64,000 nucleotides of DNA, from assembly GCA_023138875.1 (NCBI GenBank), contig JAGLOO010000030.1, positions 62,001-126,000 on the forward strand, given 5' to 3'. The notes under the pieces are model-generated. The model was not told the origin of the DNA, did not search any database, and saw only the letters and a program-made list of their open reading frames with translations. Every line of letters begins with the position of its first letter. Within the stretch, counting starts at the first letter, position 1. Shown here in pieces: positions 37,254 through 61,111 of the stretch. The DNA is from Bacteroidales bacterium. Its GTDB lineage: Bacteria > Bacteroidota > Bacteroidia > Bacteroidales > GCA-2748055. Made by a program: the position numbers and the translations under genes.

Positions 37254-39983
37254 TCATATTACAATAAATCTTGCAGAAATAATACCAAGATTACCTCGTA
37301 AAGTTATTACATAAGGTCCAGCAGGCAATATGCCAATATCAATTGAAAGATAATCAGCTTCGGAACGCTCGTTATAGAAAACTCTTCCAGATAGATCAAC
37401 AATAGTGATGCTTTTATTACTTTGATAATTTGTAATAACGTTTAGTATAGAGCCGGTAGGGTTCGGATACGTTAATAAAAATAAACTGTGTTCAGGAAAT
37501 GACTGGTCCATAAAGGACTCTTTAGTTACTCTTCTTAAAACTAATGAACTATAAGGTAGGAGATCAAAGTTATGATACTTGTTACCCCGAAAATCAATAT
37601 AATAATCATTATCATGGACCTCCAATATATCTTCAGAAGGATTATAAAGAAACACGATTGAATCATCAAATCTTGTTTCTTGAATATCTGCCATATACAA
37701 CTCAACATTATCTACCCAAAAACTGGTACTATCTTCATCAACAATTATCATTACTCGAGCGTTTGCATCACTAGTATCTGGTGTGAAAATCAATTCAAAA
37801 TCCTGTCTTTGGTCATTTAACGAAATAAGCTGCTGCTTTGCAACATCATAATTATTTTCACCGGAAGGCATTCGAACGATAGCTTTTTTATCTGGGTAAG
37901 ATGATAGTATAGAAAGCTTTAAAGCATAAACCTCCCCTGCAATAATTTCACCACATCTTGTATCACAAGACATATAGCTAACAGGTTTACCTGATGAAAA
38001 ATTAAAATGAAATTTTAAACAACCATTATCAAGCAATTCATTCTCATCCCATAAGGTTATACCATTATTAAACTTGGACCACACAAACCACTCAGAAATA
38101 TCGGTATCAAAAGTACTATTGTAAATCTTGTTTATCCCATGATATCCTTGAACTGAATACATAGGCAATTCAAAAGGGCTAGTTGATGAATGCTGATCAT
38201 GCAAATAAAGATCTTGCCATTGGTTAAGAGTAATTAAATCTGTATTATTTCCAAACTCATTTACATACGTTATACCTATGGTTAATTTATCTTCAAATGG
38301 TCGGCAGTAGTAATTATAATCAAAAGTGCCAAATTTGCCAATATCGTTCTTTATCGTTCTAAATGTTGCAACTAATTGACTAACTTCTTTACTAATAAAA
38401 ATGTTATTCTGAATAATTCCATGAGTAATAGGGAAATCTGGAGCATGGCTATCGTGAACGAATGCAATTTGAGAATAATTATTAAAAGAAGTATTGCCAA
38501 TTACGGAGAAGTGATTAGAATTGTGAATATAAATCCCATAGCCAGAACAATTTGCTATTGTATTGTTAATTACCATTACATGGTTCGATCGATCATCCAG
38601 ATAAATTCCTTGAGCACTTCCGAAATCTGGATTATCCGTACCAGATGCAGCTCCATATCCATTGATTACAATGTTTTGTTCAATTGTTTTATCAATATCC
38701 TCGATTCCTTCACTCCCAGTGTAAATACCTCCTCCATCATCGAGTGTCATACAAAAATAGTCAACAAAATTTTTCGTTACATGAATTGAATCGCCTAAGA
38801 AAGAAATCCCTAAATATCCAATGCTGTCTACAAAGTTTGCCTCACAATGGATTCTATTACCTGATAGGGTAATTCCCCTATATTTAAGATTAGTATTAAG
38901 TCCCATTCCAGGACGCAAACCTGTTAAGCAAATATGATTTCTATTGACATTGATTTCTCTGATTCTTTGAAATACTAACGCATTGTTATTCGCACGTGAA
39001 ACACTATTTCCAACAAAATCTGCATTAGTGCAGTCCCCAAATACAACAGCATTATTTCCTGCATCTGATATTATACAATTCTTAATGTTAAAATTAGTTG
39101 ATGCAACAATATAAAGATTTTCGCTCATACCACCTTTAAACTCGATATTCTCAAGTGTGAAATGATGCACCTTCAATGCATAGAAAACATAAGGAAAAGC
39201 TGTTGCACTAATTTGTTGATAGTTAGGATCTGTTGTCGAAAAAAGATACATTTTTCTCTCTTGGCTATTATAGAACCATTCACCTTCTGTGTCAAGAGTG
39301 CCCAAGTGGTTCTGAATAAAAAATCCAAATTCATCAATTAACTCAAAGGATGCAGATTCACCAAATGTTAATGAATTTCCGCTATGTGTGAGAATTGGTA
39401 ATCTTTCCATTAACCAGCGGCGGGTTCTAATAACAGCCTCTCCTCCAGTCCAATCTGGCATCAAAGTGAGATTCGAATTAGTAACACCTATCTTTCCAAC
39501 ATGACTCTCAATACTAAGATATCCTTTATTTGGTAGATCAGTATTAGGATACCGGCCTAATTGTTGTGAAAGACCATTTATAAAGAGGTTAGTAACTGAG
39601 GTGTCTAAATGTAAACAATCTGCCACCCAAATATTTTCATCAATTTCTATCCAGTTTGTAATTGTTTTAGCGCCAAAAATAACAGGAACAGTCCCAGACC
39701 CAAAATCACTTAGGACTATTCTCTTCTGCTCAGTTCCAGATCTAGTAAGCAATATTTGGCCAATAAAAACATCACCTCGCTTAAAAAGAATAGAGTCTCC
39801 GTGATTGATGAATTCCATTGACTGATTTAACTTATCTAAAGTTTTCCATGGCGTGTCAGGATTTTGTGCCTGCTCAATAGTATATTCATCACTCCCTATT
39901 GAATTTGAGAAGTAATAATTCTTAGCCCCTGCATCAGGAGAAAACAATGAAATAATTAAAAATATACTAATTATACTTCTCAT
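37254..39983 (-). CDS. T9SS-secreted right-handed beta-helix protein with carbohydrate-binding module
   Basis: 909 aa from the ATG at 39983; an upstream TTG (40028) would add 15 residues before the signal peptide MRSIISIFLIISLFSPDAGA. The N-terminal part (YYFSNSIGSDEYTIEQAQ, KTLDKLNQSME, GDSILFKRGDVFIGQI) is typical of secreted beta-helix lyases/epimerases. A parallel beta-helix occupies about 270-530, with the motif TLDDGGGIYTG and IYLDDRSNHVMVINNTIANC. Residues about 625-770 are a CBM4/9-like jelly roll (FWVDNVELY). The last 75 are a T9SS type A sorting domain (TYPNPTGSILNV, LSGRVFYN, LPAGPYVITLRG). Expected at the cell surface. It may cut or modify the glycan made by this locus. Paralogous along its whole length to the protein at 58349-61111. 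Confidence 0.8.
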   Translation of the reverse strand: MRSIISIFLIISLFSPDAGAKNYYFSNSIGSDEYTIEQAQNPDTPWKTLDKLNQSMEFINHGDSILFKRGDVFIGQILLTRSGTEQKRIVLSDFGSGTVPVIFGAKTITNWIEIDENIWVADCLHLDTSVTNLFINGLSQQLGRYPNTDLPNKGYLSIESHVGKIGVTNSNLTLMPDWTGGEAVIRTRRWLMERLPILTHSGNSLTFGESASFELIDEFGFFIQNHLGTLDTEGEWFYNSQERKMYLFSTTDPNYQQISATAFPYVFYALKVHHFTLENIEFKGGMSENLYIVASTNFNIKNCIISDAGNNAVVFGDCTNADFVGNSVSRANNNALVFQRIREINVNRNHICLTGLRPGMGLNTNLKYRGITLSGNRIHCEANFVDSIGYLGISFLGDSIHVTKNFVDYFCMTLDDGGGIYTGSEGIEDIDKTIEQNIVINGYGAASGTDNPDFGSAQGIYLDDRSNHVMVINNTIANCSGYGIYIHNSNHFSVIGNTSFNNYSQIAFVHDSHAPDFPITHGIIQNNIFISKEVSQLVATFRTIKNDIGKFGTFDYNYYCRPFEDKLTIGITYVNEFGNNTDLITLNQWQDLYLHDQHSSTSPFELPMYSVQGYHGINKIYNSTFDTDISEWFVWSKFNNGITLWDENELLDNGCLKFHFNFSSGKPVSYMSCDTRCGEIIAGEVYALKLSILSSYPDKKAIVRMPSGENNYDVAKQQLISLNDQRQDFELIFTPDTSDANARVMIIVDEDSTSFWVDNVELYMADIQETRFDDSIVFLYNPSEDILEVHDNDYYIDFRGNKYHNFDLLPYSSLVLRRVTKESFMDQSFPEHSLFLLTYPNPTGSILNVITNYQSNKSITIVDLSGRVFYNERSEADYLSIDIGILPAGPYVITLRGNLGIISARFIVI

Positions 39984-40534: not shown

Positions 40535-41914
40535 CTATTTTGTCCAAATACCTTTCTTTTTCTTGTTAATTACCAGATGATATTGAAGGGGTGCCAAAAT
40601 GAATGTATTCAGATGTGCTACTATTGAAGCAATATACAATGCATGAACTTTCAGATTGAAAAATTTGATCAAAATGAAAACAACAAAGATATAAAGAAAT
40701 GGAGTAAATAGACATGCAATAAACTGTATACGTAATGCATTTATACTGTTTAATAATGTTACATATTTTAGTCCAAATATGACAACATTAAAATAAAGAA
40801 ATCCCCAAAAAGAAAGTGGAAATCCAATATTGACTGTACCTTCACCTAGCCATACTCTATATACTGTTTCTGAAAAGAATAACATGAATACGCTCACAAT
40901 AACCAATATTACATTTAGTTGATTGTATCTCCTAATACCATTTTTAATCCACTTAAAATCCTGTTTAACATAAGCCTCAGTTGAAGCAGACCAGAAAGGT
41001 AAAATGAAAATATTTGAGACCATCAATAATACTCCAAAATACTTATAAACAATATTGTATGATGTTACTTCAAGGGAACCAAATTGTTGTAGAATTATAA
41101 TATTAGCAGATTGATATTGTACAATCCCAGCAATTTGTATTACAAAAAAAACTACTCCTAGACTAAATAGATTCTTGGCATATGTAATCCTTACTCTAGA
41201 GATTTTAGGTCGAAATCTTCTAAACTCACCATTGAATAAAACTACTGATGCCAAAGAAAGGATAATAATAGGTGCTGAACACAATGCTATTCCAAGTTTT
41301 ATTAAAGATCCATCTGTAGTTTTAATTAGGACTATAATTATGAGAAGTGATATAAACTGGCCTAAAAGATCTATAAATGAAGCCTTTGCAGGTTGTTGGT
41401 CAGCGATTATGATAGTATTAATTACTTTTAGCACAAATTGTATACAAAAATAGGTGAAAACTATTAGCGCAAGCATTGTTACTTCTTCCTTTAAATCCTT
41501 TGATACATTCAGGATAATGGCCCAATCCAGGAAATTGTTGACTATTAGGAATAACAACCATATTAAGAAAAAAATTGCGCCCAGAATGGCATAGGTTGTG
41601 CTCACATAATTCTGAGCTAAAGAGGTATCACCTTTAGCTATTGATTCAGCGAGCCTATTTCGTAAACCTTGAGTTAATCCAATATCAAAAAAACTAAACC
41701 AAGCAACAATGGAGCTAAGCGTAATCCAAACACCATAACGAGAGGGGTTTATATAGTTAATAATAAGAGGCACAAGCAAAAGGCTAATTAGAATGCTAGC
41801 ACCTCTAATGAAAAATGAAGCAATTATGTTCTTTTTAGCCTTTACGCTTCGTTGATGACCTGTAGTAAAATACTTATACAAGGAATTAGCAAATTTCGAT
41901 CCTAAGAATCTCAT
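40535..41914 (-). CDS. Wzx-type oligosaccharide flippase
   Basis: 459 aa with about 12 membrane helices. N-terminal KKNIIASFFIRGASILISLL and NPSRYGVWITLSSIVAWFSF followed by DIGLTQGLRNRLAESIA match the MOP/polysaccharide flippase family (RfbX/Wzx). It moves undecaprenyl-linked repeats across the inner membrane. In transcription order it lies between Wzc (with an IS110 remnant between) and the beta-helix gene. Confidence 0.85.
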   Translation of the reverse strand: MRFLGSKFANSLYKYFTTGHQRSVKAKKNIIASFFIRGASILISLLLVPLIINYINPSRYGVWITLSSIVAWFSFFDIGLTQGLRNRLAESIAKGDTSLAQNYVSTTYAILGAIFFLIWLLFLIVNNFLDWAIILNVSKDLKEEVTMLALIVFTYFCIQFVLKVINTIIIADQQPAKASFIDLLGQFISLLIIIVLIKTTDGSLIKLGIALCSAPIIILSLASVVLFNGEFRRFRPKISRVRITYAKNLFSLGVVFFVIQIAGIVQYQSANIIILQQFGSLEVTSYNIVYKYFGVLLMVSNIFILPFWSASTEAYVKQDFKWIKNGIRRYNQLNVILVIVSVFMLFFSETVYRVWLGEGTVNIGFPLSFWGFLYFNVVIFGLKYVTLLNSINALRIQFIACLFTPFLYIFVVFILIKFFNLKVHALYIASIVAHLNTFILAPLQYHLVINKKKKGIWTK

Positions 41915-42080
41915 TGAATTGTTAGTTGACTCTTAATAATATTCCACTGAACCCTCAACAGTAAACTGGACATTAGGTTAAGCAACTAGTTTTTGATTAG
42001 ATTTTTGTTCATCTAAATCTTTCATTGACATTTCCAGCGTTGTATAGATCCTTCCTGAGTTATACCATGCCTAGATATAT

Positions 42081-42820: not shown

Positions 42821-45166
42821 TTATGATTTAGTTTTATTATACTTATACTCGTATTTATAGTTATAAGCATACCGATAAGAACTTTTTTTCGACTTGAAAT
42901 CATTCACCAGGAGACTGAGTCTTTTTATCCCGTTAGCCTGTACGTCTGAAAGGGTTGCAACTAAAAAACGTTTCACAGTTTTTCCGTGCCTCACAATGAC
43001 AATATTTGCGTCTGCTATTGCAGCTACGTGATAGCTGTCTGAAACTGCTCCAATCGGGGAACTATCAACAATAATAAAATCATAATTCTCTTTCAACCTG
43101 TTAAATAGTTGCCCGATTTTCTCTGAGGAAGATAGTTCCCCTGGATTCGGGGGTATGGGACCTGCAGGTATCACACTTAGGTTTTGAAAATCTGTGGTAA
43201 AAATAATGTCATCGATGCTATTTTTACCAATCAAATAAGTTGATAATCCTACATCGCTGTTCAATCCAAAACTGGTTGGAAGATTCGGTCGTCGAAGATC
43301 AAAACCAACAAGTACAGTTTTCTTCCCCGCAAGGCTGTATGCTGATGCAAGGTTTACAGCAGTAAAAGTTTTACCCTCACCCGGCATCGTTGAGGAAATC
43401 AGTAAAATAGGACTTTGAGTTTCCCTTGTAAAAAACTCCATCCGGGTTCGTAAACTTCGAAAAGCTTCCGCAATCCTGGATTGAGGTTCATTTAATACCA
43501 CAGTATTATAACTTAATCTGCTGTGAGGGATATGCCCAACAAGGGGCAAACTGGTTAACATCAGGATATCTTCTTCGGAGGAAATTGTATTCTGAATTGA
43601 ATTTCTCAAAAGTAGGATAAATAGTGGAATTCCAAAACCCAATAAAATGGCCAATAGAAAAACTACTTTACTCTTTGGGGCTACTGGGGATAAATCAGCA
43701 GTAGCTGGATCGACTAATTCATTATCCGGTTTGTTGGATGCTTTCTGGATCTGGGCTTCGGCCCTTTTTTGAAGAAGAAAGGTATATAAAACATTATTAA
43801 GGTTAAACTCTCGCTCTATACCCAGCAATTGACGTTCCTTTACAGGTAATCCGGATGCCTTCACGTTAAGGCGCTTGATCTGTGTATTATTCTCGTCCAT
43901 TGCCATCTTATTGGCACGTCGAATACCTTGCAGTGTCTCTCTCAGGCTTTGTGTAATGTTTCCCATCTTTAGTTCAAGTTGGGCTTGAAGTGGATTCCTA
44001 TCACCTAATTCACTACTGTAATACTCAGTCTGTAATCCGGATAGTTCCTGTACGAGTGCCCCAAGAAGTGGGTCCTCTATACCCATGGTAGCAGGAGAAA
44101 TAGGAGATTCTTGATTATTTTCTATAGATAAATACTCAGCAAGGTAATCATAGTAATTGGACACAAGTGTCAACCGGGCTTGCTCGTTCTCAAGGACCAC
44201 AGCTTGATCAATAATTTGTTGAGCCTGGGCCGAGATATCCATAATTCGATGCCTGGAGCGGAATTCCTGGAGCCGGTTCTCTGTAATCACAAGAGAATCT
44301 GACACATCCATTAATTCCTCATCGATAAACTCAATGATACGATTGGCCTCATGGTTTTTCTTCTCCAGTTGACTTGCTATATAAACCTCAGAAAGCTTAT
44401 CAAGAAATATCTTATCCTTGGTTTTATTAGTACCTTCAAGAATCAATCTGATAATAGTTCCATCTATGGAGGTAGTTTTAATTTCCAGTCTGTTTCTATA
44501 ATGCTCTACAAGGGATTCCATTTTATGAACAACAAAATAGACCTTTTGCCTGGAATCAAATAAGTTCAGGATCCCTGGATTGGGAAGTATAGTAAAGGAA
44601 CCTCCATGGAAATCAATTTTATTTCCAAAAGAAACAATGGTATCAAACTGGACAAATGGACTCTCTTTAAACGCGAGTATAAACATATCATTTACAACCG
44701 GCTTAACAAAATACTCTTGATTGTAACTGGAAAATGCTTTAAAATGTGGAACTACATCAATTGGATTCAGAGGATAGAATGAAGCTTTCTTAAAAAGTTG
44801 TTTCCTGTAGCAGTCAATATCAAAAGGTAACTCACCCAGGGTTTTACGTATGAGGGTTCGTGATGAAAGAATATCAATCTGGTTATCAAGATTTTGACCG
44901 CCAGGTCCTAAGCCAATCCCCTGTAACATGTTTTCCGCTCCGGACATTCTTACATTGTCTCCCTCTTCAATGAGGATGGTCGTTGTTACACGGTACGTCG
45001 GTAAAGTATATTGGATGTAAAAATACGCTGCAACACCGGCAATTACGATACAAATAAGGAAATAATACCAATTGCTAATTATCATTAATCGCAGTTTTTG
45101 TAGATTAATCGTATCGGAATGACCAACATTTGGTCTCTTATTATGAAGGGGTACTGTATTATTCAT
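42821..45166 (-). CDS. wzc: Wzc-like polysaccharide co-polymerase with bacterial tyrosine kinase domain
   Basis: 781 aa. A Wzz domain with an N-terminal membrane helix (about 32-52) and a long periplasmic coiled-coil region (about 250-450; NHEANRIIEFIDEELMDVSD), a proline-rich second helix near 500-525, then the cytoplasmic BY-kinase: Walker A PGEGKT (595-600), Walker A' VLVGFDLRRP, Walker B FIIVDSSPIGAVSD, and a C-terminal Tyr cluster (SSYRYAYNYKYEYKYNKTKS). It controls polymerisation and export with Wza/Wzy by cycles of autophosphorylation. Paralogous to the kinase at 61179-63518. It has a candidate promoter just upstream and a small duplicate fragment of itself at 45194-45277. Confidence 0.9.
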   Translation of the reverse strand: MNNTVPLHNKRPNVGHSDTINLQKLRLMIISNWYYFLICIVIAGVAAYFYIQYTLPTYRVTTTILIEEGDNVRMSGAENMLQGIGLGPGGQNLDNQIDILSSRTLIRKTLGELPFDIDCYRKQLFKKASFYPLNPIDVVPHFKAFSSYNQEYFVKPVVNDMFILAFKESPFVQFDTIVSFGNKIDFHGGSFTILPNPGILNLFDSRQKVYFVVHKMESLVEHYRNRLEIKTTSIDGTIIRLILEGTNKTKDKIFLDKLSEVYIASQLEKKNHEANRIIEFIDEELMDVSDSLVITENRLQEFRSRHRIMDISAQAQQIIDQAVVLENEQARLTLVSNYYDYLAEYLSIENNQESPISPATMGIEDPLLGALVQELSGLQTEYYSSELGDRNPLQAQLELKMGNITQSLRETLQGIRRANKMAMDENNTQIKRLNVKASGLPVKERQLLGIEREFNLNNVLYTFLLQKRAEAQIQKASNKPDNELVDPATADLSPVAPKSKVVFLLAILLGFGIPLFILLLRNSIQNTISSEEDILMLTSLPLVGHIPHSRLSYNTVVLNEPQSRIAEAFRSLRTRMEFFTRETQSPILLISSTMPGEGKTFTAVNLASAYSLAGKKTVLVGFDLRRPNLPTSFGLNSDVGLSTYLIGKNSIDDIIFTTDFQNLSVIPAGPIPPNPGELSSSEKIGQLFNRLKENYDFIIVDSSPIGAVSDSYHVAAIADANIVIVRHGKTVKRFLVATLSDVQANGIKRLSLLVNDFKSKKSSYRYAYNYKYEYKYNKTKS

Positions 45167-45183
45167 AGTCTATATTTTAATTC

Positions 45184-45283: not shown

Positions 45284-46051
45284 TTAGTTTAAATCGTAAT
45301 AGCTGACAATTTCATGTTTGGCTAGAAGGTTACTTATTTTCGAACTACTAAAGAATCTGGTCTCTGGATCATTCTCGCTTTCGGGGTGGAGCATGATTTC
45401 TATTATCTTATTATTCATAGATAATAGTTTCGACAATATTTTGTATTGTTCCTTAAAATTGAGATCCTTTTGAAGGTCAGGCGTAAAATATCCATCGATT
45501 GTTTTAATTCTACTTTTTAAATATGCCTGATGAAAGCTTTTGTATATTTTTTTAATAAGGTTATTGTGTTTATTAAAGAGCATTTTTTGAGTCCGTATGT
45601 AACGGATATTGAATCTTTTTGCCGCTTTTATCATACTTCGCAATGATGGCAAATATAAATGAAGATGATGGTGATGATCTAAATGAGATATTTGAATCCC
45701 GCTATCAAGAACTTTTTCTATCTGTAGACAGTATTCCATATAAACCTCGGATTCATCAATTGAAAACCTTTTAAGCTTCTTGAGGATTTCGTCCAGATTA
45801 TAAAATTGATTTGTATCTCTGTTAAATATGGTCTGATAGCCATTCCCAATATTAAAAGGCCCATCTAAACAAAGGTGCACGCCAATACCTAAATTCGGAT
45901 TATCTTTTGAGATCTCAACAGCATGACTAAAATACCTCCCACTGGCTATGATCGTTGAACTTGATACTATTCCTTTCTTGTGCAACATGAATATTGTATT
46001 ATTCGACTCTTCAGATGTACCCATATCATCTGCATTAATAATAAGTCTCAT
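45284..46051 (-). CDS. ChbG/YdjC-type carbohydrate deacetylase
   Basis: 255 aa. The N-terminal LIINADDMGTSEESN with metal-ligand Asp8/Asp9, GIGVHLCLDGP (His59) and SHLDHHHHLHLYLP (121-134) are the metal-binding motifs of the YdjC/HpnK family; MLHPESENDPETR near the C-terminus completes the pattern. Family members remove N-acetyl groups from amino sugars such as chitooligosaccharides or hopanoid-linked GlcNAc. Here it probably deacetylates a precursor or lipid-linked sugar, giving a free amine that could then be acylated or amidated. 53 bp after the upstream gene. Confidence 0.82.
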   Translation of the reverse strand: MRLIINADDMGTSEESNNTIFMLHKKGIVSSSTIIASGRYFSHAVEISKDNPNLGIGVHLCLDGPFNIGNGYQTIFNRDTNQFYNLDEILKKLKRFSIDESEVYMEYCLQIEKVLDSGIQISHLDHHHHLHLYLPSLRSMIKAAKRFNIRYIRTQKMLFNKHNNLIKKIYKSFHQAYLKSRIKTIDGYFTPDLQKDLNFKEQYKILSKLLSMNNKIIEIMLHPESENDPETRFFSSSKISNLLAKHEIVSYYDLN

Positions 46052-46104
46052 TATTATTTATATTTTGTTAATCCTCACAGAATAAATATTTTCTCAAAAA
46101 TAGA

Positions 46105-47598
46105 CTATCTCAGTCTAAACTTAATAGGATCCATGGGATTGATAAAACCGGCTTTTACAAGAGTTTTTCTTGTAAATTTCTTGAATTTTCGGGATAATGA
46201 TTTCGGGTTTATGGGTTCTTCCAGTACATCAGTCCACATGGCCTGCATTGCTTTCCGATAGAACAGATAATCCGGGTAGCATCGGTATTTTGGGTCAACT
46301 CCCAGTACCATATCTAATAATTCCCTGTTATTGAATGGTGTAAAGGCTTCCTGAACGATGTCCCACTCAAGCTGACTCTGTGCCTGCCAGCTTCCCAGAC
46401 GTTGCTCCCAGTAGTAAATATCCAATGGTTTATATCCAAAAGGAATCACACTTATCTCAATATCATCAAACCACTCCATCATGCGGTCCTTAATGAAATC
46501 AATATGCTTCCAGTTGTAAGTCAGGTTCAGGACATATGTACCCGATTTAATTTCGGGATGCTTTCCTGATGGATAATACTGACAGCGAGCTATTTCGGCA
46601 CAATTGCCTTTTAAGGTAACCCGTTCCTGGGGATAATCTTCATACATTGCATGTGCAATGATTCCCCAATCGTGCAGGTGCGGATTATCTGTATTTCCAT
46701 TATATATTTCAGCAAACCGCTCATCAATGGGCCTGCGACAATCAATTATATAATGAGGATAATCTAATTGTGACATCAGGTTAAGTGGAATCCTGATATC
46801 AGGTGATTTATCCGTTAAGTCATAATACTTCAATGTATAAAAATACACATCATTGGCTAAATCCTTACAAGAACTCAGTATGGTTCTTGAATCTACACCG
46901 GCTGTTAATGGCAGGGCCAGCTTAAATCTATTGTTTGCTGCACGAAGGGTATTCTTTACAATGTTGCAATATTGGTCTACTGTCTCCTCCAGATTTCTGG
47001 TTTTCAGTGGCTTAGTTGGCCAGAACCTTATTTGCCTGTTATTGGAAGCATCCAGGTAATGATTCGGAACCAGATGATCAACATGATCATACAGTGAAGT
47101 ACCGCTTGGAATGTGGTGCTCAATGTTGGAATTTGCGTAAACCGAGTTAAAATATTCATGATACTTCGTCCCCTTTATAAGTTCCATCACAAGCTCCAGT
47201 AAAAGGGGCTGGGAAGCTGCATGGATCGCATTTTCATATTTAGTATAAACCACCTGTCTGAGTCCACAGGTATCATGGAAAATATAGCACTGATCCTCTT
47301 GTTTGATGAATAATACGAACCTCCCTACCAGGCCATAGAGTTTTACAGGGATTTCGCTGATCGATTTAATGCTGGAGATATCATTGAGGACATCTGTATT
47401 TGATTGATCAGGAAATCTGGGATTAATTGTATAACCTACCAATGCAAAATCGAAATCACCTTTTCTGACAATTGTCAGATCACAATCGGGATGAACATAT
47501 AGTTTATGGGATCCCAGTTCTTCATATTGCCAGTTCCCTAAACTCGGGCATTTCTTCGTTGTAAATAAGTACTGTCTCCTAAATTTCAAATGATCCAT
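46105..47598 (-). CDS. Asparagine-synthetase-like amidotransferase domain protein (no glutaminase Cys)
   Basis: 497 aa. The C-terminal two thirds match the ATP-pyrophosphatase domain of asparagine synthetases, with the PP-loop LALPLTAGVDSRTILSS (228-243; SGGxDS becomes TAGVDSR). The N-terminal region looks like a shrunken glutaminase fold, but there is no Cys2, and the protein starts MDHLKF. Ammonia from glutamine is therefore unlikely; free ammonia or an amine could be used to form an amide. In a glycan locus it may amidate a uronic or amino acid substituent. It lies between the deacetylase and an aminotransferase. Confidence 0.7.
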   Translation of the reverse strand: MDHLKFRRQYLFTTKKCPSLGNWQYEELGSHKLYVHPDCDLTIVRKGDFDFALVGYTINPRFPDQSNTDVLNDISSIKSISEIPVKLYGLVGRFVLFIKQEDQCYIFHDTCGLRQVVYTKYENAIHAASQPLLLELVMELIKGTKYHEYFNSVYANSNIEHHIPSGTSLYDHVDHLVPNHYLDASNNRQIRFWPTKPLKTRNLEETVDQYCNIVKNTLRAANNRFKLALPLTAGVDSRTILSSCKDLANDVYFYTLKYYDLTDKSPDIRIPLNLMSQLDYPHYIIDCRRPIDERFAEIYNGNTDNPHLHDWGIIAHAMYEDYPQERVTLKGNCAEIARCQYYPSGKHPEIKSGTYVLNLTYNWKHIDFIKDRMMEWFDDIEISVIPFGYKPLDIYYWEQRLGSWQAQSQLEWDIVQEAFTPFNNRELLDMVLGVDPKYRCYPDYLFYRKAMQAMWTDVLEEPINPKSLSRKFKKFTRKTLVKAGFINPMDPIKFRLR

Positions 47599-47705
47599 TT
47601 TATTTAGCTCTATATGTTAATCCCGTTTCACAGGTTGCATGAACCAGAATTTCGTGATGGGAACTATCCAATCAGTTATTAAAAAATATCCTTCTTCAAA
47701 TGCAA

Positions 47706-48872
47706 TCATTTTGTGAGGATTAGTCGAATGGATTCGCAAATGTATTTGAGTTCTGTATCTTTCAAATCCGGATATATGGGAAGGGAAACCAAACCCTTCC
47801 AGATCTTCTCCGTATTTGGGAAATCATCCGGATCAAGGTTGTAAGTATCCCTGTAATAAGACATTCGATGTAACGGTTTGTAGTGCACAGAGGTACCAAT
47901 CCCCTTATCTGTCATCTGATCAATAAATTCATTTCTAGATACTTTAGATTCTGGAAGAATGATTATCGGAAAAAGATGCCATGAATGATGCTCCAATGGT
48001 CCCATGCACACTGGTAGATCTATCCATGGTATCTGACTCAGTTCATTATAATAATACTCAGCACATCGCTGCCTTTCTTGCCTGAAATACTCTGCTTGTT
48101 CCAGTTGGGCTAGTCCGATGGCTGCGTTAACATCAGGCATATTATATTTATATCCCGGTGCCACAACATCATATTCCCAGGAGCTTATATCCGTGTTATA
48201 TCTCTGCCAGATATCCTTATCAATTCCATGCAGGCGCATGGTCCTTGCCCTGTTATATACTGACTCCTCATCAGTAACCAGCATACCCCCTTCCCCTGTA
48301 GTAATTGTCTTATTGGCATAGAAACTAAAACAGGTGATATCGCCAAAAGTACCAATATACTGGTCCTCATGTTTCGTTGGAAATGCATGCGCTGCATCCT
48401 CAATCACTCTTATATTGTATTGTCTACAAATCTCAATAATTCCGTCACCCTCAGGGGTAGTCATCCTGGCAGCCTGCCCCCCGTAATGTACAAGAATGAG
48501 TGCTTTAATATCCCCATTCCTTTTTAATGCCTCCTTGAGTATAGAAGTGGTTACCAGCCCTGTACTATAGTCAACATCCAAAAATAGAGGATCCGCTCCC
48601 ATATATCTAATCACTTCCGCAGAGGCAGTAAAGGTCAATGAAGGAACAAGAACCTTATCACCACTCTGTACTCCGATCGCCTCAAGAGCCAGATGCAGGG
48701 CGGAAGTACATGAGTTCACGGCACAGGCATATTTTGCTCCAACATAACCGGCAAACTGCTTTTCAAAATCGAGCGCTTTAGATGATGTGGTAAGCCATCC
48801 ACTACTAAGTACCTCGGTGAGGTATTTATACTCATTTCCTGATATGGATACTTTTGCGAATGGTATTTTCAC
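47706..48872 (-). CDS. DegT/DnrJ/EryC1/StrS sugar aminotransferase
   Basis: 388 aa from a GTG start at 48872, supported by a strong Shine-Dalgarno. CAVNSCTSALHLAL, RVIEDAAHAFP (Asp159) and SFYANKTITTGEGGM with Lys188 as the PLP lysine identify it. It makes a 4- or 3-amino nucleotide sugar from the keto precursor with glutamate. It belongs to a different subgroup from the PglE-like enzyme at 20048-21178, so two amino sugars are probably produced by the region. Confidence 0.87.
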   Translation of the reverse strand: MKIPFAKVSISGNEYKYLTEVLSSGWLTTSSKALDFEKQFAGYVGAKYACAVNSCTSALHLALEAIGVQSGDKVLVPSLTFTASAEVIRYMGADPLFLDVDYSTGLVTTSILKEALKRNGDIKALILVHYGGQAARMTTPEGDGIIEICRQYNIRVIEDAAHAFPTKHEDQYIGTFGDITCFSFYANKTITTGEGGMLVTDEESVYNRARTMRLHGIDKDIWQRYNTDISSWEYDVVAPGYKYNMPDVNAAIGLAQLEQAEYFRQERQRCAEYYYNELSQIPWIDLPVCMGPLEHHSWHLFPIIILPESKVSRNEFIDQMTDKGIGTSVHYKPLHRMSYYRDTYNLDPDDFPNTEKIWKGLVSLPIYPDLKDTELKYICESIRLILTK

Positions 48873-48877
48873 TTGAT

Positions 48878-48884
48878 TTCCTCC
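48878..48884 (-). promoter_or_regulatory. Strong Shine-Dalgarno before a GTG start
   Basis: On the - strand GGAGGAA lies 5 bp before the GTG at 48872. Bacteroidota genes rarely carry such strong ribosome-binding sites, so it stands out, and it decides the GTG start of the aminotransferase. Confidence 0.6.
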
Positions 48885-48918
48885 TTAATAATTACAGGAT
48901 ATACGTAATTTCTTATGT

Positions 48919-50130
48919 TTAACTGGCAATCGAATCTGTCTCAAACTCATCCATGATTGAGACATGGATTAAGTCAATCGCTGATTCGCATGCATGAACT
49001 GCTTCAGCAGTTCTGGTTCCAGATGCAATAACGAACCCGACTCGGTCAGAACCACTTTGTAAATCATTGACGATCTCACCCTCCCTTTTAAATAGAGATG
49101 CCTCATTAACGCCTTTTACTGATAGTGCTTTTTCTATGCCACTGATTGATTTGATTTTACCTCTGGATGGTGTAAAGAATCTGATCGCTGCAGCTTTATC
49201 GAACTTGACTTCCAGATCAGGTATTTCATTCATGGCCACCTTAATACTGTTTTCAATCATATCAATACCGGTTGATAGCGGAACAAGATGAGTAGCTATA
49301 AACCCTCCTCCTAATCTGGCACCTATTTCAACAATTTTGGGCCCCTGTTTAGTTATGATAATCTCGGTATGAGCAGGTCCATGTTCGATCCCTAATGCTT
49401 TTATTGCATCTGCAGTTATTTTTTTTACACTCTTTATGGTTTTAAGATCTAACCGGGCAGGTTGAGTATGACCTGTCTCTACAAAATAGGGAGGCCCTGT
49501 AGTAATCTTATCGGTAATAGCACAGAAATTCACTGTCCTGTTACAGGAGATGGTCTCAACACTGATTTCCATGCCAGTCATGAACTCCTCAATTAGTATT
49601 TCCCCAGTACGAGCGAATTCCTTAGCATGACGAAATCCTTTGCTTACATCTTTCTTTGATTGCACCAAATATACCCCCCTGCTTCCTGAGTTATCCGCAG
49701 GTTTAACAATGAAGTGGAAGTTATAATGCTTTGCAAGTAAATGGTAATCCTCAATGCTTTTAACCTTATGAAAACTGGGTATTGGAACATTATACTGTGA
49801 CAACCGCTTACGCATCAGACACTTATCAGTGGCAGAATAAGCAGTATCAGTAGAGATCCCAATCAATCCAAGTCTTTCTGAAACCGCTGCCACACCACGT
49901 ACAGGCATATCAGTTGCAAGGGTTAAAATCCCATCAATCTTTTTTTCAACTGCTGCGGCAACAATCTTATCCGTATCTATCGTGCTGATTAATAACGACT
50001 CATCTGCATATTGGAATCCAATTGCATTGATGTCCATATCAACAGCAATTACATGATAACCCATTTGTTTGGCCTTCCTTATTGCAGGGACCTGCAATAT
50101 GCTCGCCCCGAGGATCATGATCTTCTTCAT
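48919..50130 (-). CDS. ATP-grasp ligase of a polysaccharide locus
   Basis: 403 aa. The N-terminal preATP-grasp domain (KIMILGASILQVPAIRKAKQ) is followed by the ATP-grasp core: FHFIVKPADNSGSRGVYLV, EILIEEFMTGMEISVE, GPAHTEIIITKQGPKIVEIG and ARLGGGF. It has carbamoyl-phosphate-synthase/biotin-carboxylase style nucleotide-binding residues. ATP-grasp enzymes join a carboxylate to an amine or thiol through an acyl phosphate. Paired with the aminotransferase it may attach an amino or hydroxy acid to an amino sugar. Its ATG overlaps the stop of the upstream transferase by 4 bp. Confidence 0.82.
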   Translation of the reverse strand: MKKIMILGASILQVPAIRKAKQMGYHVIAVDMDINAIGFQYADESLLISTIDTDKIVAAAVEKKIDGILTLATDMPVRGVAAVSERLGLIGISTDTAYSATDKCLMRKRLSQYNVPIPSFHKVKSIEDYHLLAKHYNFHFIVKPADNSGSRGVYLVQSKKDVSKGFRHAKEFARTGEILIEEFMTGMEISVETISCNRTVNFCAITDKITTGPPYFVETGHTQPARLDLKTIKSVKKITADAIKALGIEHGPAHTEIIITKQGPKIVEIGARLGGGFIATHLVPLSTGIDMIENSIKVAMNEIPDLEVKFDKAAAIRFFTPSRGKIKSISGIEKALSVKGVNEASLFKREGEIVNDLQSGSDRVGFVIASGTRTAEAVHACESAIDLIHVSIMDEFETDSIAS

Positions 50131-50726
50131 TTGCTTGACTCAATTCTTTTATATGTTTTTTCTCTTCTGAGTACCATGAAAACCGTTTTAATGAATATCT
50201 TCATATCGAACCCCAGGGATAGGTGGTCCACATAGTATCTATTATGTTGAATTATCTCTTCCCAGCTGCTCTCACCTCTAAAATATGCTTGGCTATAACC
50301 GGTTAAACCAGGTTTCACGCAAAGATTATACTTTACTTCAGTAAGAAATTTTTCATTCAGAGTAATATCGGGTCTTGGTCCAATCAGACTCATCTTTCCA
50401 GTAAATATATTCAAAACCTGTGGAGTTTCATCCAAGCTCGTTTCTCTCAGGAATCGTCCTATTCTTGTTACCCTTGGATCATCTTTGGCATTATAGGTAG
50501 ATCCATCAGCTAATCTGATATCCGGAGCATCAACGACCATTGTTCGGAATTTAAACATTTTAAATGGTACTCCGTTCCTACCTAATCGGTTTGAACTATA
50601 AAAAATTGGCCCCCCATCTTCTAGCTTTATTAAGATAGCAATTGGACCAAAAATAAGCAGTAGAAAAGGTACACTGATTACGGATATCAATAAATCAAAA
50701 CATCTTTTAACAATCCGGCGATACAA
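50127..50726 (-). CDS. Monotopic phosphoglycosyltransferase (initiating sugar-phosphate transferase)
   Basis: 199 aa. N-terminal helix (about 9-34), YSSNRLGRNGVPFKMFKFRTM, catalytic Asp99-Glu100 in TSLDETPQVL, GPRPD and KPGLTGYSQAYFRG. This is the second minimal PGT of the window. It differs from the PglC-like one in its KPGLTGYSQ and FRGESSW motifs, so probably uses another sugar. It would start the repeat of the distal cluster. Translationally coupled to the ATP-grasp gene. Confidence 0.88.
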   Translation of the reverse strand: MYRRIVKRCFDLLISVISVPFLLLIFGPIAILIKLEDGGPIFYSSNRLGRNGVPFKMFKFRTMVVDAPDIRLADGSTYNAKDDPRVTRIGRFLRETSLDETPQVLNIFTGKMSLIGPRPDITLNEKFLTEVKYNLCVKPGLTGYSQAYFRGESSWEEIIQHNRYYVDHLSLGFDMKIFIKTVFMVLRREKTYKRIESSK

Positions 50727-54574: not shown

Positions 54575-54579
54575 CTCAA

Positions 54580-55674: not shown

Positions 55675-55683
55675 TATCTCTCT

Positions 55684-56949
55684 CTATTGCTTTTCAATCA
55701 GGACAATTAATAACCAGAAAGGGAGATACATTAAGGGAGATAAGGTTATACTGGTCAATAACAAGATGAAAATTAGTGCAATACCTAACGTATTCGACCT
55801 GTTTCTCAGGAACCAGTTGACAAATAGACCAATGTAGGTCATTAGTCCAATGATTCCATAATCATAAAAGATTTCCAGGAAATTATTGTGAGGAGAGCCA
55901 TGCACATTCCCTACAGCCTGGCCAACTAATTCAGATGAATAGTGGCTGCCTCCTCCAATAAGCAATGTCTTGAAATTAGAAGCAATGAAGGTTTTAAATG
56001 ATTCTCTCCAAATGTATGTTCTATCTGATCCCGTATAGATTGACTCCTCCCTGAATCGATCAATTAGTGGTTCAAAGTACGATACTTTTGAGAAAGCAAT
56101 TCCAATTCCGATAATAAGTAATGCTATGATCAGGATATTTGTCAGAGAATTTGCTTTTCTAAAAACGATATATACAATTGGTAGGATTGCTACAAGAAAT
56201 GCGCTCCTTGATGCAAGCATTCCAAGGGTTACCATTCCCAGTATAAATGTCAGTAAATAGAATAGTCTAAAGATTAATTTCTCATCATGGGATTCAAAAA
56301 AATAGTAAAAGGAGATTACTATACCAATCGCTATTACACAGCCAAGATAATTTGGATCACTCCAGTACATCCTATCAACACCCTGGTTGGCTGCTGAATG
56401 AATGATAAAATCTTTAAAAAAAATAAGTCCATAGATTGAAAGGCAAAACGAGACTATTATAAAACCCACTTCCATAAGCCGAATTTCCTTCCAGTGGCTC
56501 ATAAGCTTAACAAGTAAAACGGATATAAGAAGTAGTTGTATGAACTCAAGTTTAAAAGCAGAATTAATGATATTGGAAAACACTACAACAACAAGTAGAA
56601 GAAATATTCCTGAATTTATCCTTGATGAGGATAATCCGAAATATAAATAGTAAATATATAAAGCTGCCACCAGGAGTAAATAGAAACTTGACTGTGAGGG
56701 AAGATAGCCAAATGGTGCAACTGAAAAAAGCCTTATGGTAGCAAATATGGTGATAAGCGCAGGAGCAATATAAGGGTATTTAAGCAAAGGCAATACAAAG
56801 CACGTTATAAAAGCCAGCCTAAATACAATATTTGGTTCAACCAAATTTCTATTAGTCCATGATAATGCAATCATCAGGAGAGCCAGATAATATATCCCGA
56901 ATAAAAGAATTGGCCTTTTATCTTCTATATCTTTTAGCAGGGCATTCAT
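55684..56949 (-). CDS. Wzy-like O-antigen polymerase/ligase (Wzy_C)
   Basis: 421 aa, about 11-12 hydrophobic helices. The C-terminal loop contains GGGSHYSSELVGQAVGNVHG then SPHNNFLEIFYDYGIIGL; the H-x2-N-x-x-LE pattern is the Wzy_C/O-antigen ligase signature (PF04932). It polymerises or ligates repeats at the periplasmic face. It directly follows the Wzx gene in transcription order. Confidence 0.85.
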   Translation of the reverse strand: MNALLKDIEDKRPILLFGIYYLALLMIALSWTNRNLVEPNIVFRLAFITCFVLPLLKYPYIAPALITIFATIRLFSVAPFGYLPSQSSFYLLLVAALYIYYLYFGLSSSRINSGIFLLLVVVVFSNIINSAFKLEFIQLLLISVLLVKLMSHWKEIRLMEVGFIIVSFCLSIYGLIFFKDFIIHSAANQGVDRMYWSDPNYLGCVIAIGIVISFYYFFESHDEKLIFRLFYLLTFILGMVTLGMLASRSAFLVAILPIVYIVFRKANSLTNILIIALLIIGIGIAFSKVSYFEPLIDRFREESIYTGSDRTYIWRESFKTFIASNFKTLLIGGGSHYSSELVGQAVGNVHGSPHNNFLEIFYDYGIIGLMTYIGLFVNWFLRNRSNTLGIALIFILLLTSITLSPLMYLPFWLLIVLIEKQ

Positions 56950-57003
56950 TATATTTTTCTATCGGTACATCCTGAAATAAAGATTCAACTTTTCCTGATA
57001 CTT

Positions 57004-58284
57004 TTAAACCGTCCTTCTCCTGAGAAATATCCTGAATATCGAAAGATGAGCAAGGTAAAACAGAGCACCTGAAATAATCTTACCAATAACAGCCCCATCC
57101 AGTCCGTATAGTTTTATGAGGAAATAAACAATTGGCAGGCTAATTAGCAGACCAGCCATGGAAGAATAAAAATTCAAATTGAATTTGCCATAGCCCATCA
57201 ATGCTATTCCTTTCATCATATTCAGATACATCAGGGTCCCCCCCACACTGAGATAAATAAAGTATCCGATGGATAAATCGTATTTTCCGGAGAATGCAAA
57301 TCTAATAAATGGTGGAACCAACACAATACCCAGAATACATATAACGATCCATACCAGATGATTCATTTGGTTATATTTCTTATATGTTTTCCACCAGCTG
57401 ATGTAGCTTTCTGATTTGCTGGAAAAATATGGAAATGCTACCTGCTGAATACTTGCCTGGAAGATCCCATAACCACTAAGCAAAGTAATGGCAAACATAT
57501 AATAACCTACATCACCCCTGTCCTCAACCAGATAGTTAATGAAATAGATATCCATCGTATTAAGAAGCATATAGGCAAGGTTTGCGAGTAGCGCAAACCT
57601 TGCAAATCTCCACATATCTGCGAGGAAGGTAAAGTTAAACTTCATTTTCAGGAGTTTTTTTACAAAGCCAAGCAACCCTCGCTTTAAGGAAAAAACAGAC
57701 AAGAATCCGGTTATCGAAATAATTGCAACATATCCTTCAAGTTGATACAGATAAGTTGCACCGATAATTAAACCAACACTTACCAGTTTTACTACCAGCT
57801 GGATCTTGGCCATTTTCTTCAAATCCTTCATGGCTTGGTAATAAGCCACCTGCATCGATTGTATATTTGTTGGTAATAAGAACAACGCATAATAGGGAAA
57901 TAGAGAAGTTATTACCGGATCATTTGAAACTAATCCGGTGTTCGCTAAAACGTACAATAAAAGGTACAGCAATATAAAGGATAGTGATGCAACCAGCATG
58001 GACAGGTGCAGCATATCTGATATTTCTTCCATCGAGCGCTTATCAGAAGCCATCTTAACAAGGGATACATTAAATCCAAATCCACCGATCAAAGCACTTA
58101 GTCCAATATAAACCTGCATGATCTTAATCCTACCAATATCTTCAGGTTCAAGGATACCTGCAACAAATAACTGGGAGCCAAATCCGACAATATAGATCAA
58201 TCCTTTGGCGGTGAAAAGATGGAAAAAGCCCTTTTCCCCAACATTTTTAACTTCTGCTAAGCACTTATTGATAAAGGCCTTCAT
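57004..58284 (-). CDS. Wzx-type polysaccharide flippase
   Basis: 426 aa, about 12 helices. FHLFTAKGLIYIVGFGSQLF, ILEPEDIGRIKIMQVYIGLS and GGFGFNVSLVKMASD match the MOP polysaccharide exporter family. It flips lipid-linked repeats for the distal assembly set. Only distantly similar to the flippase at 40535-41914, unlike the closely paralogous beta-helix and Wzc partners. Confidence 0.85.
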   Translation of the reverse strand: MKAFINKCLAEVKNVGEKGFFHLFTAKGLIYIVGFGSQLFVAGILEPEDIGRIKIMQVYIGLSALIGGFGFNVSLVKMASDKRSMEEISDMLHLSMLVASLSFILLYLLLYVLANTGLVSNDPVITSLFPYYALFLLPTNIQSMQVAYYQAMKDLKKMAKIQLVVKLVSVGLIIGATYLYQLEGYVAIISITGFLSVFSLKRGLLGFVKKLLKMKFNFTFLADMWRFARFALLANLAYMLLNTMDIYFINYLVEDRGDVGYYMFAITLLSGYGIFQASIQQVAFPYFSSKSESYISWWKTYKKYNQMNHLVWIVICILGIVLVPPFIRFAFSGKYDLSIGYFIYLSVGGTLMYLNMMKGIALMGYGKFNLNFYSSMAGLLISLPIVYFLIKLYGLDGAVIGKIISGALFYLAHLSIFRIFLRRRTV

Positions 58285-58348
58285 TTAATACATTGTCCCG
58301 GAAAATCAAGAAAGTCCGCAATTACAGGAATTCACCGGTGCAAATCAT

Positions 58349-61111
58349 TTAAACGATAATTAGCTTCATTAGACTATAACTATAACTTTCAATTCCCCTA
58401 ATTAGGATGATATAAGGACCTTTTGAAAGTGAGGAGACATCAATTTTTTTTGACCTTAGTGATGTTTGCTCCTCATATACCGTTCTGCCAGATATATCGA
58501 TGATCGTGATGGTTTTATTACTGTTATCATTTGTAATAATATCGATCATATAGCTGGCGGGATTTGGATAGACCAGTGCATACAGAACGGGCTTTATTGA
58601 CGGATTAATCCCATAATAGTCTTCTGATACTCTGAATAAAACTAATGAGCTGAATGGCTGAAGTATAAAATTATGGTACTTATCACCCCTTGCATCAATA
58701 TAGAACTGATCATCGTAATAATTTGAACTTGTATTCACGGGGTTATACACAAATGACAGAGAATCCTCAATATTTGCCAGTTGGACAGTAGCTTCATACA
58801 GTTCCACATTATCCATCCAATAAGAGTTCGCATCTTCTAAAATTGTAAAATCAACCGTCGCACTTGCTGCTCCCATATCAGGTGAAAATAGCAATTCATA
58901 CTCTTTTCTATCAGTTCCTATTAGAGCCACCTGGGAAGATGCAAGAACATTACCTGGTGAATTATAGTTACGTAAGAGCATCGACACCTTTCCATCTGGT
59001 TGGGAGGAAAGCATTGAAAACCTCAGAACATAATCTTGATCAGCTGAAACATCACTAACTGCAGTGATTGCAGCCAGGAAACCATCAGCATTCCCGGATA
59101 AACCATTGAATTTAAGCTTCATGCTTCCCTGATCCAGTATTCCTGTATTATCCCATGAAATCAGACAATTATTATAATTGGAAACACATGTCCATCCAGA
59201 AATGTCCTGGCCAAAATTGCCATTTGGAATCTTATCAGAATCAACTGACTCCACAGAAAAGCTGGAGATTTCTTTAGGACTGACGGATGAGTTTAGATCA
59301 TAATTATAGTTGTTTTGCCACTTGCTAAGATCAAGTAAATCGACCTCATTTCCCGAGCTTTCGTCAATCTTCAAAACGCGTATGGTCTCCTCTTCATTAA
59401 TTGGTCTGCAATAATGATTGTTATTGAATGAACCGAACTGGGATATTTTACTCTTATCAACTACCCGGAAATCAGCAACCAGTTGACTACCAAGCCTGGA
59501 AAAGAAAATATTGTTCTCTACAACGCAATTTGTTATGGGGAACTCCACAAAAACAGGATCATGAGCGAATACCAGTTGAGTGCCATTGTTATAACTCGTA
59601 TTCCCTATGATAGAGATATTGTTTGAATTGTGTATATATATGCCAAAACTCACGCAATTTGCAACTGTATTATCCAGTATCATGGCGTTGTTTGAACGAT
59701 CATCCATATAAATTCCCTCTGCCAATAATAATGCAGGATATCTCGTACCATGACCAGCTCCTATACCATTTATGACAATGTTTTTCTCAATGAACCTATT
59801 TGAGTATATGGTATTTCCATCACCACCAGTATATATTCCTCCACCATCGTCAAGTGTAATACAAAAATGCGAAATATTGTTTTTCTTAATGCTAATGTCA
59901 TTGCCCGTGAAGTATATACCATTATAACCCACACTATCAATTCTGTTTAATTCGCAGGTGATATCAGTTCCTTCAAAATAAATACCAGTATATTGAGTCC
60001 CTGCTGAATATATCCAGGTGTAATTAACTCCCATCCCTGCTCGTAACCCAATATCAAAAAGATCATTGTCTTTCACTTGAACTTTATGACAGGCATCAAA
60101 TGTAATTCCTTTACTATTTGATTGCCTGATTGTATTTCCTATAATGGAAACATCGGTGCAACTTAAGAAATGAGCCCCATCATTACCAGAATCAGAAATA
60201 AGGTTGTTGCAAATAATTATGTTTTCTGATGACTCGATAAGTATTGCATGATTTGACGAACCTCTGAATTCCAGTTGAGATATTTCAAAATCGTGCTGAT
60301 TCCTGGTTACAAATATTGATGAATATGAGGTCACTTCTGTATTCATTGTATTGGGATCAAGTGATTGATATATATACAGTTTAGAATTTGATTGATCGAA
60401 ATACCATTCACCATTCCTGTCCAGAGTATTCAAATGGTTCTGTATAAAAAACCCATAATCATCCAGTATTTCATGCTTGGTAGGTTTCGGAAATTGCAAT
60501 TCATTGCTCTCATGAGACTGTATGGGAACTCTGTCTAAATAGTATCTCTTTGTACGCAATACTGCATCACCTCCACTCCAATCTGGAGTGGGGTGGAGTG
60601 AATTACTAAGAATGACAGTCCTACCACCATGAGCATCGATGTTAAGATATCCACTATTGGGATCATCGGCATTTGGATATCGACCAATCTGCTGCGAAAT
60701 ACCATTGATAAAAAAGTTTGTTACTGCTGTATCTATTGATGGACAATCAGCACTCCAGATATTGCCTCCTGCATGGGCCCATTCAGTAATTGGTCTGGTA
60801 CCTTTTATAATTGGAACCGGACCACTACCATAGGCGCTAAAGACGAGTTTACTGTTTAATGATCCGGAACAAGTGAGAACGATTTGACCGGTGAATGTAT
60901 CTCCTCTTTTAAACAATATTGAATCTCCGGGCATGAGAAGATCCATTGATACATTCAAATGATCTAATGTTTTCCAGGGACTATTGGGATTCTGTGCCTC
61001 ACCAACAGAATGATTATCATTTCCATTCGAGCTGGAAAAATAGTAAGTCTTGGAGGACGATTCCAATAAGAACAAAAACAAAGATGCAACAATGAGTGCC
61101 AGTTTTCTCAT
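58349..61111 (-). CDS. T9SS-secreted right-handed beta-helix protein with carbohydrate-binding module
   Basis: 920 aa. Signal peptide KLALIVASLFLFLLESSS, then KTYYFSSSNGNDNHSVGEAQ and GDSILFKRGDTFTGQIVLTC. The beta-helix (about 265-525) contains the same TLDDGGGIYTG motif and IYMDDRSNNAMILDNTVANC as the paralogue at 37254-39983. CBM4/9-like region about 630-770 (YWMDNVELYEA) and a C-terminal T9SS type A sorting domain (VYPNPASYMIDI, ISGRTVYEE, LSKGPYIILIRG). Predicted cell-surface protein. Inverting mannuronan epimerases and pectate lyases share the fold, so either lyase or epimerase activity on the exported glycan is plausible. It lies between Wzc and Wzx. Confidence 0.8.
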   Translation of the reverse strand: MRKLALIVASLFLFLLESSSKTYYFSSSNGNDNHSVGEAQNPNSPWKTLDHLNVSMDLLMPGDSILFKRGDTFTGQIVLTCSGSLNSKLVFSAYGSGPVPIIKGTRPITEWAHAGGNIWSADCPSIDTAVTNFFINGISQQIGRYPNADDPNSGYLNIDAHGGRTVILSNSLHPTPDWSGGDAVLRTKRYYLDRVPIQSHESNELQFPKPTKHEILDDYGFFIQNHLNTLDRNGEWYFDQSNSKLYIYQSLDPNTMNTEVTSYSSIFVTRNQHDFEISQLEFRGSSNHAILIESSENIIICNNLISDSGNDGAHFLSCTDVSIIGNTIRQSNSKGITFDACHKVQVKDNDLFDIGLRAGMGVNYTWIYSAGTQYTGIYFEGTDITCELNRIDSVGYNGIYFTGNDISIKKNNISHFCITLDDGGGIYTGGDGNTIYSNRFIEKNIVINGIGAGHGTRYPALLLAEGIYMDDRSNNAMILDNTVANCVSFGIYIHNSNNISIIGNTSYNNGTQLVFAHDPVFVEFPITNCVVENNIFFSRLGSQLVADFRVVDKSKISQFGSFNNNHYCRPINEEETIRVLKIDESSGNEVDLLDLSKWQNNYNYDLNSSVSPKEISSFSVESVDSDKIPNGNFGQDISGWTCVSNYNNCLISWDNTGILDQGSMKLKFNGLSGNADGFLAAITAVSDVSADQDYVLRFSMLSSQPDGKVSMLLRNYNSPGNVLASSQVALIGTDRKEYELLFSPDMGAASATVDFTILEDANSYWMDNVELYEATVQLANIEDSLSFVYNPVNTSSNYYDDQFYIDARGDKYHNFILQPFSSLVLFRVSEDYYGINPSIKPVLYALVYPNPASYMIDIITNDNSNKTITIIDISGRTVYEEQTSLRSKKIDVSSLSKGPYIILIRGIESYSYSLMKLIIV

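Follow-up and report, generated by a model that had tools for sequence, protein, structure and literature searches.

The window analysed here, the whole of a 64,000-nucleotide stretch of DNA from a Bacteroidales bacterium, spans bases 62001-126000 of contig JAGLOO010000030.1 (C24) in a 4.79-Mb genome (assembly GCA_023138875.1). It carries two exopolysaccharide (EPS) assembly modules, and in each lies a gene for a large beta-helix protein with the sorting tail of the type IX secretion system (T9SS). These two proteins, BH1 and BH2, are probably GH141-like hydrolases that are exported through the T9SS and that trim or remodel the polysaccharide made by their own cluster. Their genes are:

BH2, 58349..61111, minus strand: 920 amino acids, T9SS-tailed right-handed beta-helix, GH141-like, with catalytic-type aspartates D422 and D470

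BH1, 37254..39983, minus strand: 909 amino acids from ATG, paralogue of BH2, with the same motifs at residues 413-423 and 460-467

A first-pass annotation, made from the sequence alone, had described the two as paralogues sharing a signal peptide, a T9SS sorting domain, an identical TLDDGGGIYTG motif and a module resembling a carbohydrate-binding module (CBM), a description that holds up throughout. The proteins are 43-44% identical, with 54-55% identity over residues 19-180 and 361-560 and 36% over residues 181-360, and TLDDGGGIYTG is their longest common exact run. A hydrophobic N-terminal signal can be read from both sequences, and Beta_helix, NosD and Por_Secre_tail of Pfam, as well as the tail model TIGR04183, score above their cut-offs in both. 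The CBM-like module is supported by Foldseek matches to the carbohydrate-binding modules 8xmz (TM score 0.81 by target length) and 2y64 (0.71). BH1 and BH2 are the only full-length family members found in the genome, the remaining seven of nine matches covering the tail region only.

The fold points to a glycoside hydrolase. An AlphaFold2 model of BH2 built from 74 sequences reached a predicted local distance difference test (pLDDT) score of 93.7 and a predicted TM score (pTM) of 0.89, and its top Foldseek match among solved structures was the GH141 enzyme BT_1002 (E 1.3e-18). BT_1002 was also the top match in VIA-align 2, with a Z of 29.8 over 459 residues and a root-mean-square deviation of 2.6. 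Other right-handed beta-helix structures followed at lower Z: AlgE6 (23.5), AlgE4 (23.4), NosD (23.2), an alginate lyase (23.1), PL6 lyases (about 22), GH136 (22.0), the RbmB lyase (21.9), the adhesin PfbA (19.2) and AlgG (19.0). The two best sequence-profile matches of the helix core were BT_1002 and 9rx2, a 'parallel beta-helix repeat protein'; no paper was found on 9RX2, which of the solved structures matches best in sequence. A profile match to GH136 lacto-N-biosidase had an E of about 1e-23, its best stretch covering only residues 20-109, and the LnbX model fell far under its cut-off.

The alignment to BT_1002 also suggests which residues may be catalytic. D422 of BH2, within TLDDGGGIYTG, and D470, within IYMDDRSN, align with positions 528 and 569 of the BT_1002 construct in a printed sequence-profile alignment that was counted by hand. 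A constant offset of 5, deduced from the equal 41-residue spacing, turns these positions into D523 and D564 of BT_1002, the pair named as essential in one paper (PMC12786026) and as catalytic in another (PMC5593877). D422 is present in all 74 sequences and D470 in 69 of the 71 rows with a letter at that position, while the neighbouring D421 is kept in 42 of 74. Since the two aspartates are conserved and align with the GH141 pair, TLDDGGGIYTG is probably a catalytic motif of a GH141-like hydrolase.

Both genes lie among EPS genes on the minus strand. Read from right to left, the first module consists of the outer-membrane polysaccharide export (OPX) gene, Wzc2, BH2, Wzx2 and Wzy2, followed by glycosyltransferases and an initiating transferase; the second lies further left, with Wzc1, Wzx1, BH1 and Wzy1, followed by further glycosyltransferases and another initiating transferase. 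The main genes are:

OPX/Wza, C-terminal part, 63575..64000, minus strand: outer-membrane polysaccharide export, gene continuing past the window

Wzc2, 61179..63518, minus strand: chain-length determinant and tyrosine autokinase, with Wzz and GNVR matches and TIGR01007 over cut-off

Wzx2, 57004..58284, minus strand: flippase, matching Polysacc_synt_3 and Polysacc_synt

Wzy2, 55684..56949, minus strand: polymerase, matching Wzy_C

pHPT2, 50127..50726, minus strand: initiating sugar-phosphate transferase, matching Bac_transf

Wzc1, 42821..45166, minus strand: family-supported, 60% identical to Wzc2

Wzx1, 40535..41914, minus strand: probable flippase, with support through a relative only

Wzy1, 35115..36353, minus strand: putative polymerase, assigned by position, with no family match

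pHPT1, 24069..24695, minus strand: initiating sugar-phosphate transferase, matching Bac_transf

Each protein had been placed by the first-pass annotation within a Wzc/Wzx/Wzy set, and family matches bear this out for Wzc1, Wzc2, Wzx2 and Wzy2. Wzx1 itself has no family match, its profile showed no similarity to Wzx2 with hhalign and no match to solved structures, and the assignment comes from relatives 41% identical to it: the copy at locus L036, which is one gene away from a BH family member, matches Polysacc_synt over cut-off, and the copy at L032 adjoins a family member. BH2 is tightly placed, with gaps of 67 bp to Wzc2 and 64 bp to Wzx2 in a co-directional run on one strand. Promoter-like counts were near the shuffled level (24 against 22.6 and 38 against 33.9), terminator-like counts were 2 against 3.4 in shuffles around BH2 and 8 against 2.8 around BH1, and an Rfam scan gave no match.

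The closest paralogues between the modules are the Wzc proteins (60% identical) and the BH proteins (43%). No BLAST match at 1e-5 links Wzx1 to Wzx2 or Wzy1 to Wzy2, so the two modules probably make different polymers. A recent duplication of a whole EPS module as the source of the BH pair was considered and rejected: identity is only 23-44% for the initiating transferases and some further genes, and the Wzx and Wzy pairs are unlinked. The genome has three OPX matches, of which the only one on this contig lies at the right edge of the double module; with two Wzc/Wzx/Wzy sets and one such match on the contig, both modules may be served by a single outer-membrane exporter.

Several other genes of the window deserve mention. 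Among the glycosyltransferases of the second module lies a heparinase II/III-type protein (26996-28864, minus strand), whose N and C domains both score over cut-off and which has no obvious signal peptide. A T9SS-tailed protein of a second kind, of 550 amino acids (16711-18363, minus strand), stands beside the EPS genes and has a dockerin-like repeat whose score of 22.8 bits just misses the cut-off of 22.9. The genes at 22859-23911 and 24787-25770 (minus strand), in an EPS module, encode a related pair (23% identical); the former product has FemAB and GNAT matches just below the cut-offs, and the pair might add amino acids to a glycan. YdjC-like, asparagine-synthase-like, DegT aminotransferase and ATP-grasp ligase genes are grouped at 45284-50130 (minus strand), possibly as a set for an amidated or aminoacylated sugar.

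By signal peptide and sorting domain BH1 and BH2 have the marks of T9SS cargo, and the genome encodes the translocon protein SprA and contains 88 Por_Secre_tail matches, 83 of them over cut-off. Among the 36 members of the family that are linked to EPS genes, 26 have a Por_Secre_tail match at 1e-3. A custom tail model, which was built from members judged to be tailed and then finds those same members, scores 27 of the 36 as tailed. Of the nine that it leaves, L063 and L084 are truncated by contig ends, the match of L045 crosses a stop, and L062 has a weak tail-like match in another frame. The L045 gene (Puia dinghuensis) has its family match at 9926-11743, reading through a TGA, and at L065 (Cyclobacterium qasimii) the family gene is apparently broken by a stop, with a split copy at 15342-16085 and 16121-20005.

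The family is sparse, occurring in 6 of 395 genomes sampled across the phylum and 8 of 295 across the order, the genome studied here being counted in both; an initial scan of genome contigs with BH2 alone found no relative in 23 stretches. A scan of reference genomes gave 277 relatives, the best 80 of which represent 79 loci, 67 of them in Bacteroidota; the duplicate loci L030, L034, L035 and L038 were removed before counting. The largest clusters of neighbouring genes were WecG/TagA/CpsF (23 loci), GT4 glycosyltransferases (20, the window included), initiating transferases (15), Wzc (13) and OPX (10), and a second set comprised SusC (13) and SusD (12). A family member stands directly beside Wzc, as BH2 does, at L062, L076 and L104, and beside OPX at L039, L037, L092 and L069.

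This association with EPS genes exceeds that of the controls. At least one EPS hallmark gene was found at 23 of the 56 family loci of at least 15 kb, against 2 of 36 loci for other T9SS cargo and 4 of 39 other 20-kb regions, and two hallmarks at 16 of 56 against 0 of 36 and 1 of 39, with marker models that derive from the neighbourhoods of the family itself and are perhaps more sensitive there. WecG is present at 19 of the 56 loci and in none of the 75 control regions. The cargo loci come from five genomes that carry the family; L195, which overlaps a family locus, was removed, and L173, L178 and L189, which hold family members, were kept. The other regions are not strictly random, being evenly spaced stretches of G249, G182, G091 and G371 together with six of G000, four of which hold a T9SS-tailed gene.

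Distances were counted with curated Pfam models for WecG and OPX in 32 genomes, namely those available for named isolates whose loci reach 15 kb, together with G249, G371 and G091, all picked for the family and none for its EPS genes. A family member lies within 10 kb of WecG in 16 of the 25 genomes that have WecG (0.35 expected) and within 25 kb of OPX in 15 of 32 (3.4 expected), where the expected values presuppose that placement is uniform and that genomes are independent, and the rows share ancestry.

The family tree, of 92 of 101 rows (nine were left out for short cores), places BH1, BH2 and L039 in one clade with a support of 100, each of the three lying within a few genes of Wzc. At L039, the nearest relative, the family gene is followed by OPX and Wzc. 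That this locus had recently shared Wzc together with BH was rejected, its Wzc being about 31-32% identical to those of the window and its BH protein 52-54%. The EPS label changes 18 times on the tree, at least 12 of these changes being forced by starred branches, whereas shuffled labels gave a mean of 27.1 and none of 500 shuffles was as low; the association is thus clustered, yet has been gained or lost many times. Ten rows are labelled Sus and three EPS and Sus. The members from Zobellia and Cellulophaga (L067, L074, L078, L079 and L109) form one clade with other large proteins upstream; in the two loci scanned, L074 and L078, these carry T9SS tails and CBM domains, SusC/D genes are nearby in Zobellia, and the clade is likely to be a degradative branch. 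The overall pattern would suit an enzyme used both in the making of EPS and in the eating of glycans.

In the reading favoured here, the polymer would be flipped, polymerised and exported by the Wzx, Wzy, Wzc and OPX proteins of the cluster. The BH protein would be exported separately, by Sec and then by the T9SS, and at the surface would hydrolyse links in the polymer, thereby adjusting its length, release or texture. BH1 and BH2 would then have different specificities, each matched to its own polymer.

A number of observations weigh against this reading. The Pfam model GH141_M has a curated cut-off of 27 bits, which neither BH2 (25.5) nor BH1 (18.5) reaches, so the two are filed as GH141-like and not as members of GH141; the model matches at 1e-3 in only 4 of the 36 EPS-linked members, and single-sequence searches reach BT_1002 only at E 0.61 and 0.19. 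BH1 is flanked by large intergenic gaps, with no open reading frame of at least 120 amino acids on the same strand within 300 bp, and it is among the 24 of 36 EPS-linked members whose gene shares no co-directional run with a recognised EPS gene. No family member was found in the 17 other genomes of the genus that were searched. Lack of a Pfam tail match in 10 of the 36 shows that coupling to the T9SS is not universal, and five of the tail-less EPS-linked members (L041, L044, L051, L068 and L072) look intact. A missing T9SS does not account for the missing tails, since SprA was found in all 16 of the genomes that were searched, including those of L041, L044, L051 and L072. T9SS export is therefore common among EPS-linked members and not a condition of EPS linkage; the tail-less forms might act in the periplasm.

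The genomic linkage is also less than complete. The first-pass annotation had proposed a co-occurrence search, and had said that homologues lying mostly away from wzx/wzc loci would refute its idea. Such a tendency is found in part: only 21 of 87 family matches, a count that includes short and split ones, are within 10 kb of WecG, there is no enrichment within 10 kb of OPX (3 of 32 genomes, 1.5 expected), and some branches are SusC/D-linked. Taken together, the WecG and OPX distances suggest that the family member commonly sits at the WecG end, away from OPX. EPS hallmarks are near only 36 of the 92 tree rows and SusC/D genes occur at 11 of the 56 longer loci, so some members of the family are probably degradative. 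Of the earlier proposal, a surface-tailoring system in which EPS assembly is coupled to a T9SS lyase or epimerase, the coupling of surface-directed carbohydrate enzymes to EPS clusters is supported, and the lyase or AlgG-like epimerase is not.

These SusC/D-linked branches speak for scavenging, in which BH1 and BH2 would break down glycans of algae, plants or other bacteria as a food source and would have come to lie among EPS genes through the shuffling of genomic islands. The characterised GH141 enzymes, which act on alpha-L-fucosidic links, xylan and fucoidan, are in keeping with such a role. However, the window contains no SusC/SusD cluster members, BH2 is tightly enclosed in an EPS gene run, and linkage to EPS genes is more frequent than in either control set or by chance and recurs on many separate branches, so that scavenging by BH1 and BH2 seems rather unlikely. 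The first-pass annotation had favoured a lyase or an AlgG-like epimerase, and the epimerases and lyases among the next structural matches (AlgE6, AlgE4, the alginate lyase, PL6, RbmB and AlgG) keep some place for an EPS-tailoring enzyme of this type. The match to GH141 is 6 Z units higher and extends over 459 residues against about 310, the GH141 aspartate pair is aligned and conserved, and neither BH1 nor BH2 contains DPH, which we take to be the core of the DPHD/DPHE-type catalytic motif of mannuronan epimerases. Structure and residues thus agree best with GH141 hydrolases, and an epimerase or lyase is now very unlikely.

Catalysis could also take another form, or be absent. Glycosidases with a nucleophile and an acid/base can transglycosylate if they are retaining, and an enzyme placed at the surface by its T9SS tail and encoded at or in EPS clusters could cut nascent EPS and attach it anew to a different chain or to an acceptor at the surface; little credence is given to this. 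BH1 and BH2 as non-enzymatic matrix proteins, lectins or adhesins holding EPS at the surface through the beta-helix and the CBM-like module, would fit the structural match to PfbA, and a precedent exists in WceF, which agglutinates with its own EPS and cuts it slowly (PMC7949094). Binding alone has no obvious need of a nearly invariant catalytic-type aspartate, however, and a purely structural role appears very unlikely. Hydrolysis of the cognate polymer by BH1 and BH2 accordingly remains the preferred reading.

A broader and doubtful extension, held as something of a long shot, is a phylum-wide, two-machine way of finishing EPS: Bacteroidota clusters of the WecG/Wzx/Wzy type would recurrently carry a matched GH141-like surface enzyme, often exported by the T9SS, that cuts the polymer once it has left the cell and possibly rejoins it by transglycosylation, so determining its length or its attachment to the cell surface. 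How Bacteroidota control, shed or anchor their surface EPS seems, as an impression, to have been little studied. Should the BH enzymes work on the polymer that their own cluster makes, each would offer a candidate glycosidase specific to an EPS about which nothing else is known, and removing its gene would be a test for functional coupling between T9SS export and EPS assembly. A likely enzyme type can now be given to proteins for which the libraries searched offer mainly a description as beta-helix repeats plus a sorting tail.

The statement of the first-pass annotation that no characterised example was known is too strong, since WceF, RbmB, AlgE and ExsH each have as substrate an EPS that their own cell makes. 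WceF of the Pantoea stewartii stewartan cluster is, like the BH proteins, a right-handed beta-helix protein encoded in an EPS cluster with wzc; it is a glycoside hydrolase that is thought to trim or reorganise the matrix, and its mutation raises polymer size (PMC7949094). It differs in being a tailspike-like trimer with a twin-arginine translocation (Tat) signal from a proteobacterium. RbmB of Vibrio cholerae, a beta-helix structural match to BH2, is likewise encoded in a biofilm cluster and targets its own polysaccharide, the product of a system resembling Wzx/Wzy, but it is a lyase, and whether it is periplasmic or secreted further is left open (PMC11637428). The AlgE mannuronan C-5 epimerases of Azotobacter, the second-best structural match, are beta-helix proteins that are exported by a separate machine and modify their own polymer (PMC12350332); they are epimerases, and the machine is a type I exporter (EexDEF) instead of the T9SS. 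The rhizobial glycanases ExsH, PlyA and PlyB act extracellularly on their own EPS and also differ in using type I export; ExsH is secreted by PrsDE and PlyA is surface-attached, and a plyB mutant gives more viscous cultures while a plyA mutant leaves EPS processing unchanged (PMC1403797). The idea of EPS trimming is therefore not itself new. The characterised GH141 enzymes, which include the alpha-L-fucosidase BT_1002, the xylanase Xyn141E and the Wf141 endo-fucanases (PMC12786026, PMC5593877), resemble BH1 and BH2 in fold and in the catalytic aspartate pair, but those characterised in these two papers act on plant or algal types of substrate, and they are remote in sequence (phmmer E 0.19). 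A link of GH141-like or T9SS-exported beta-helix proteins to EPS synthesis clusters was not found in the open-access literature searched, and to that extent the new elements here are the GH141-like enzyme type, the T9SS as its exporter and the recurrence of the arrangement in EPS clusters of the Bacteroidota.

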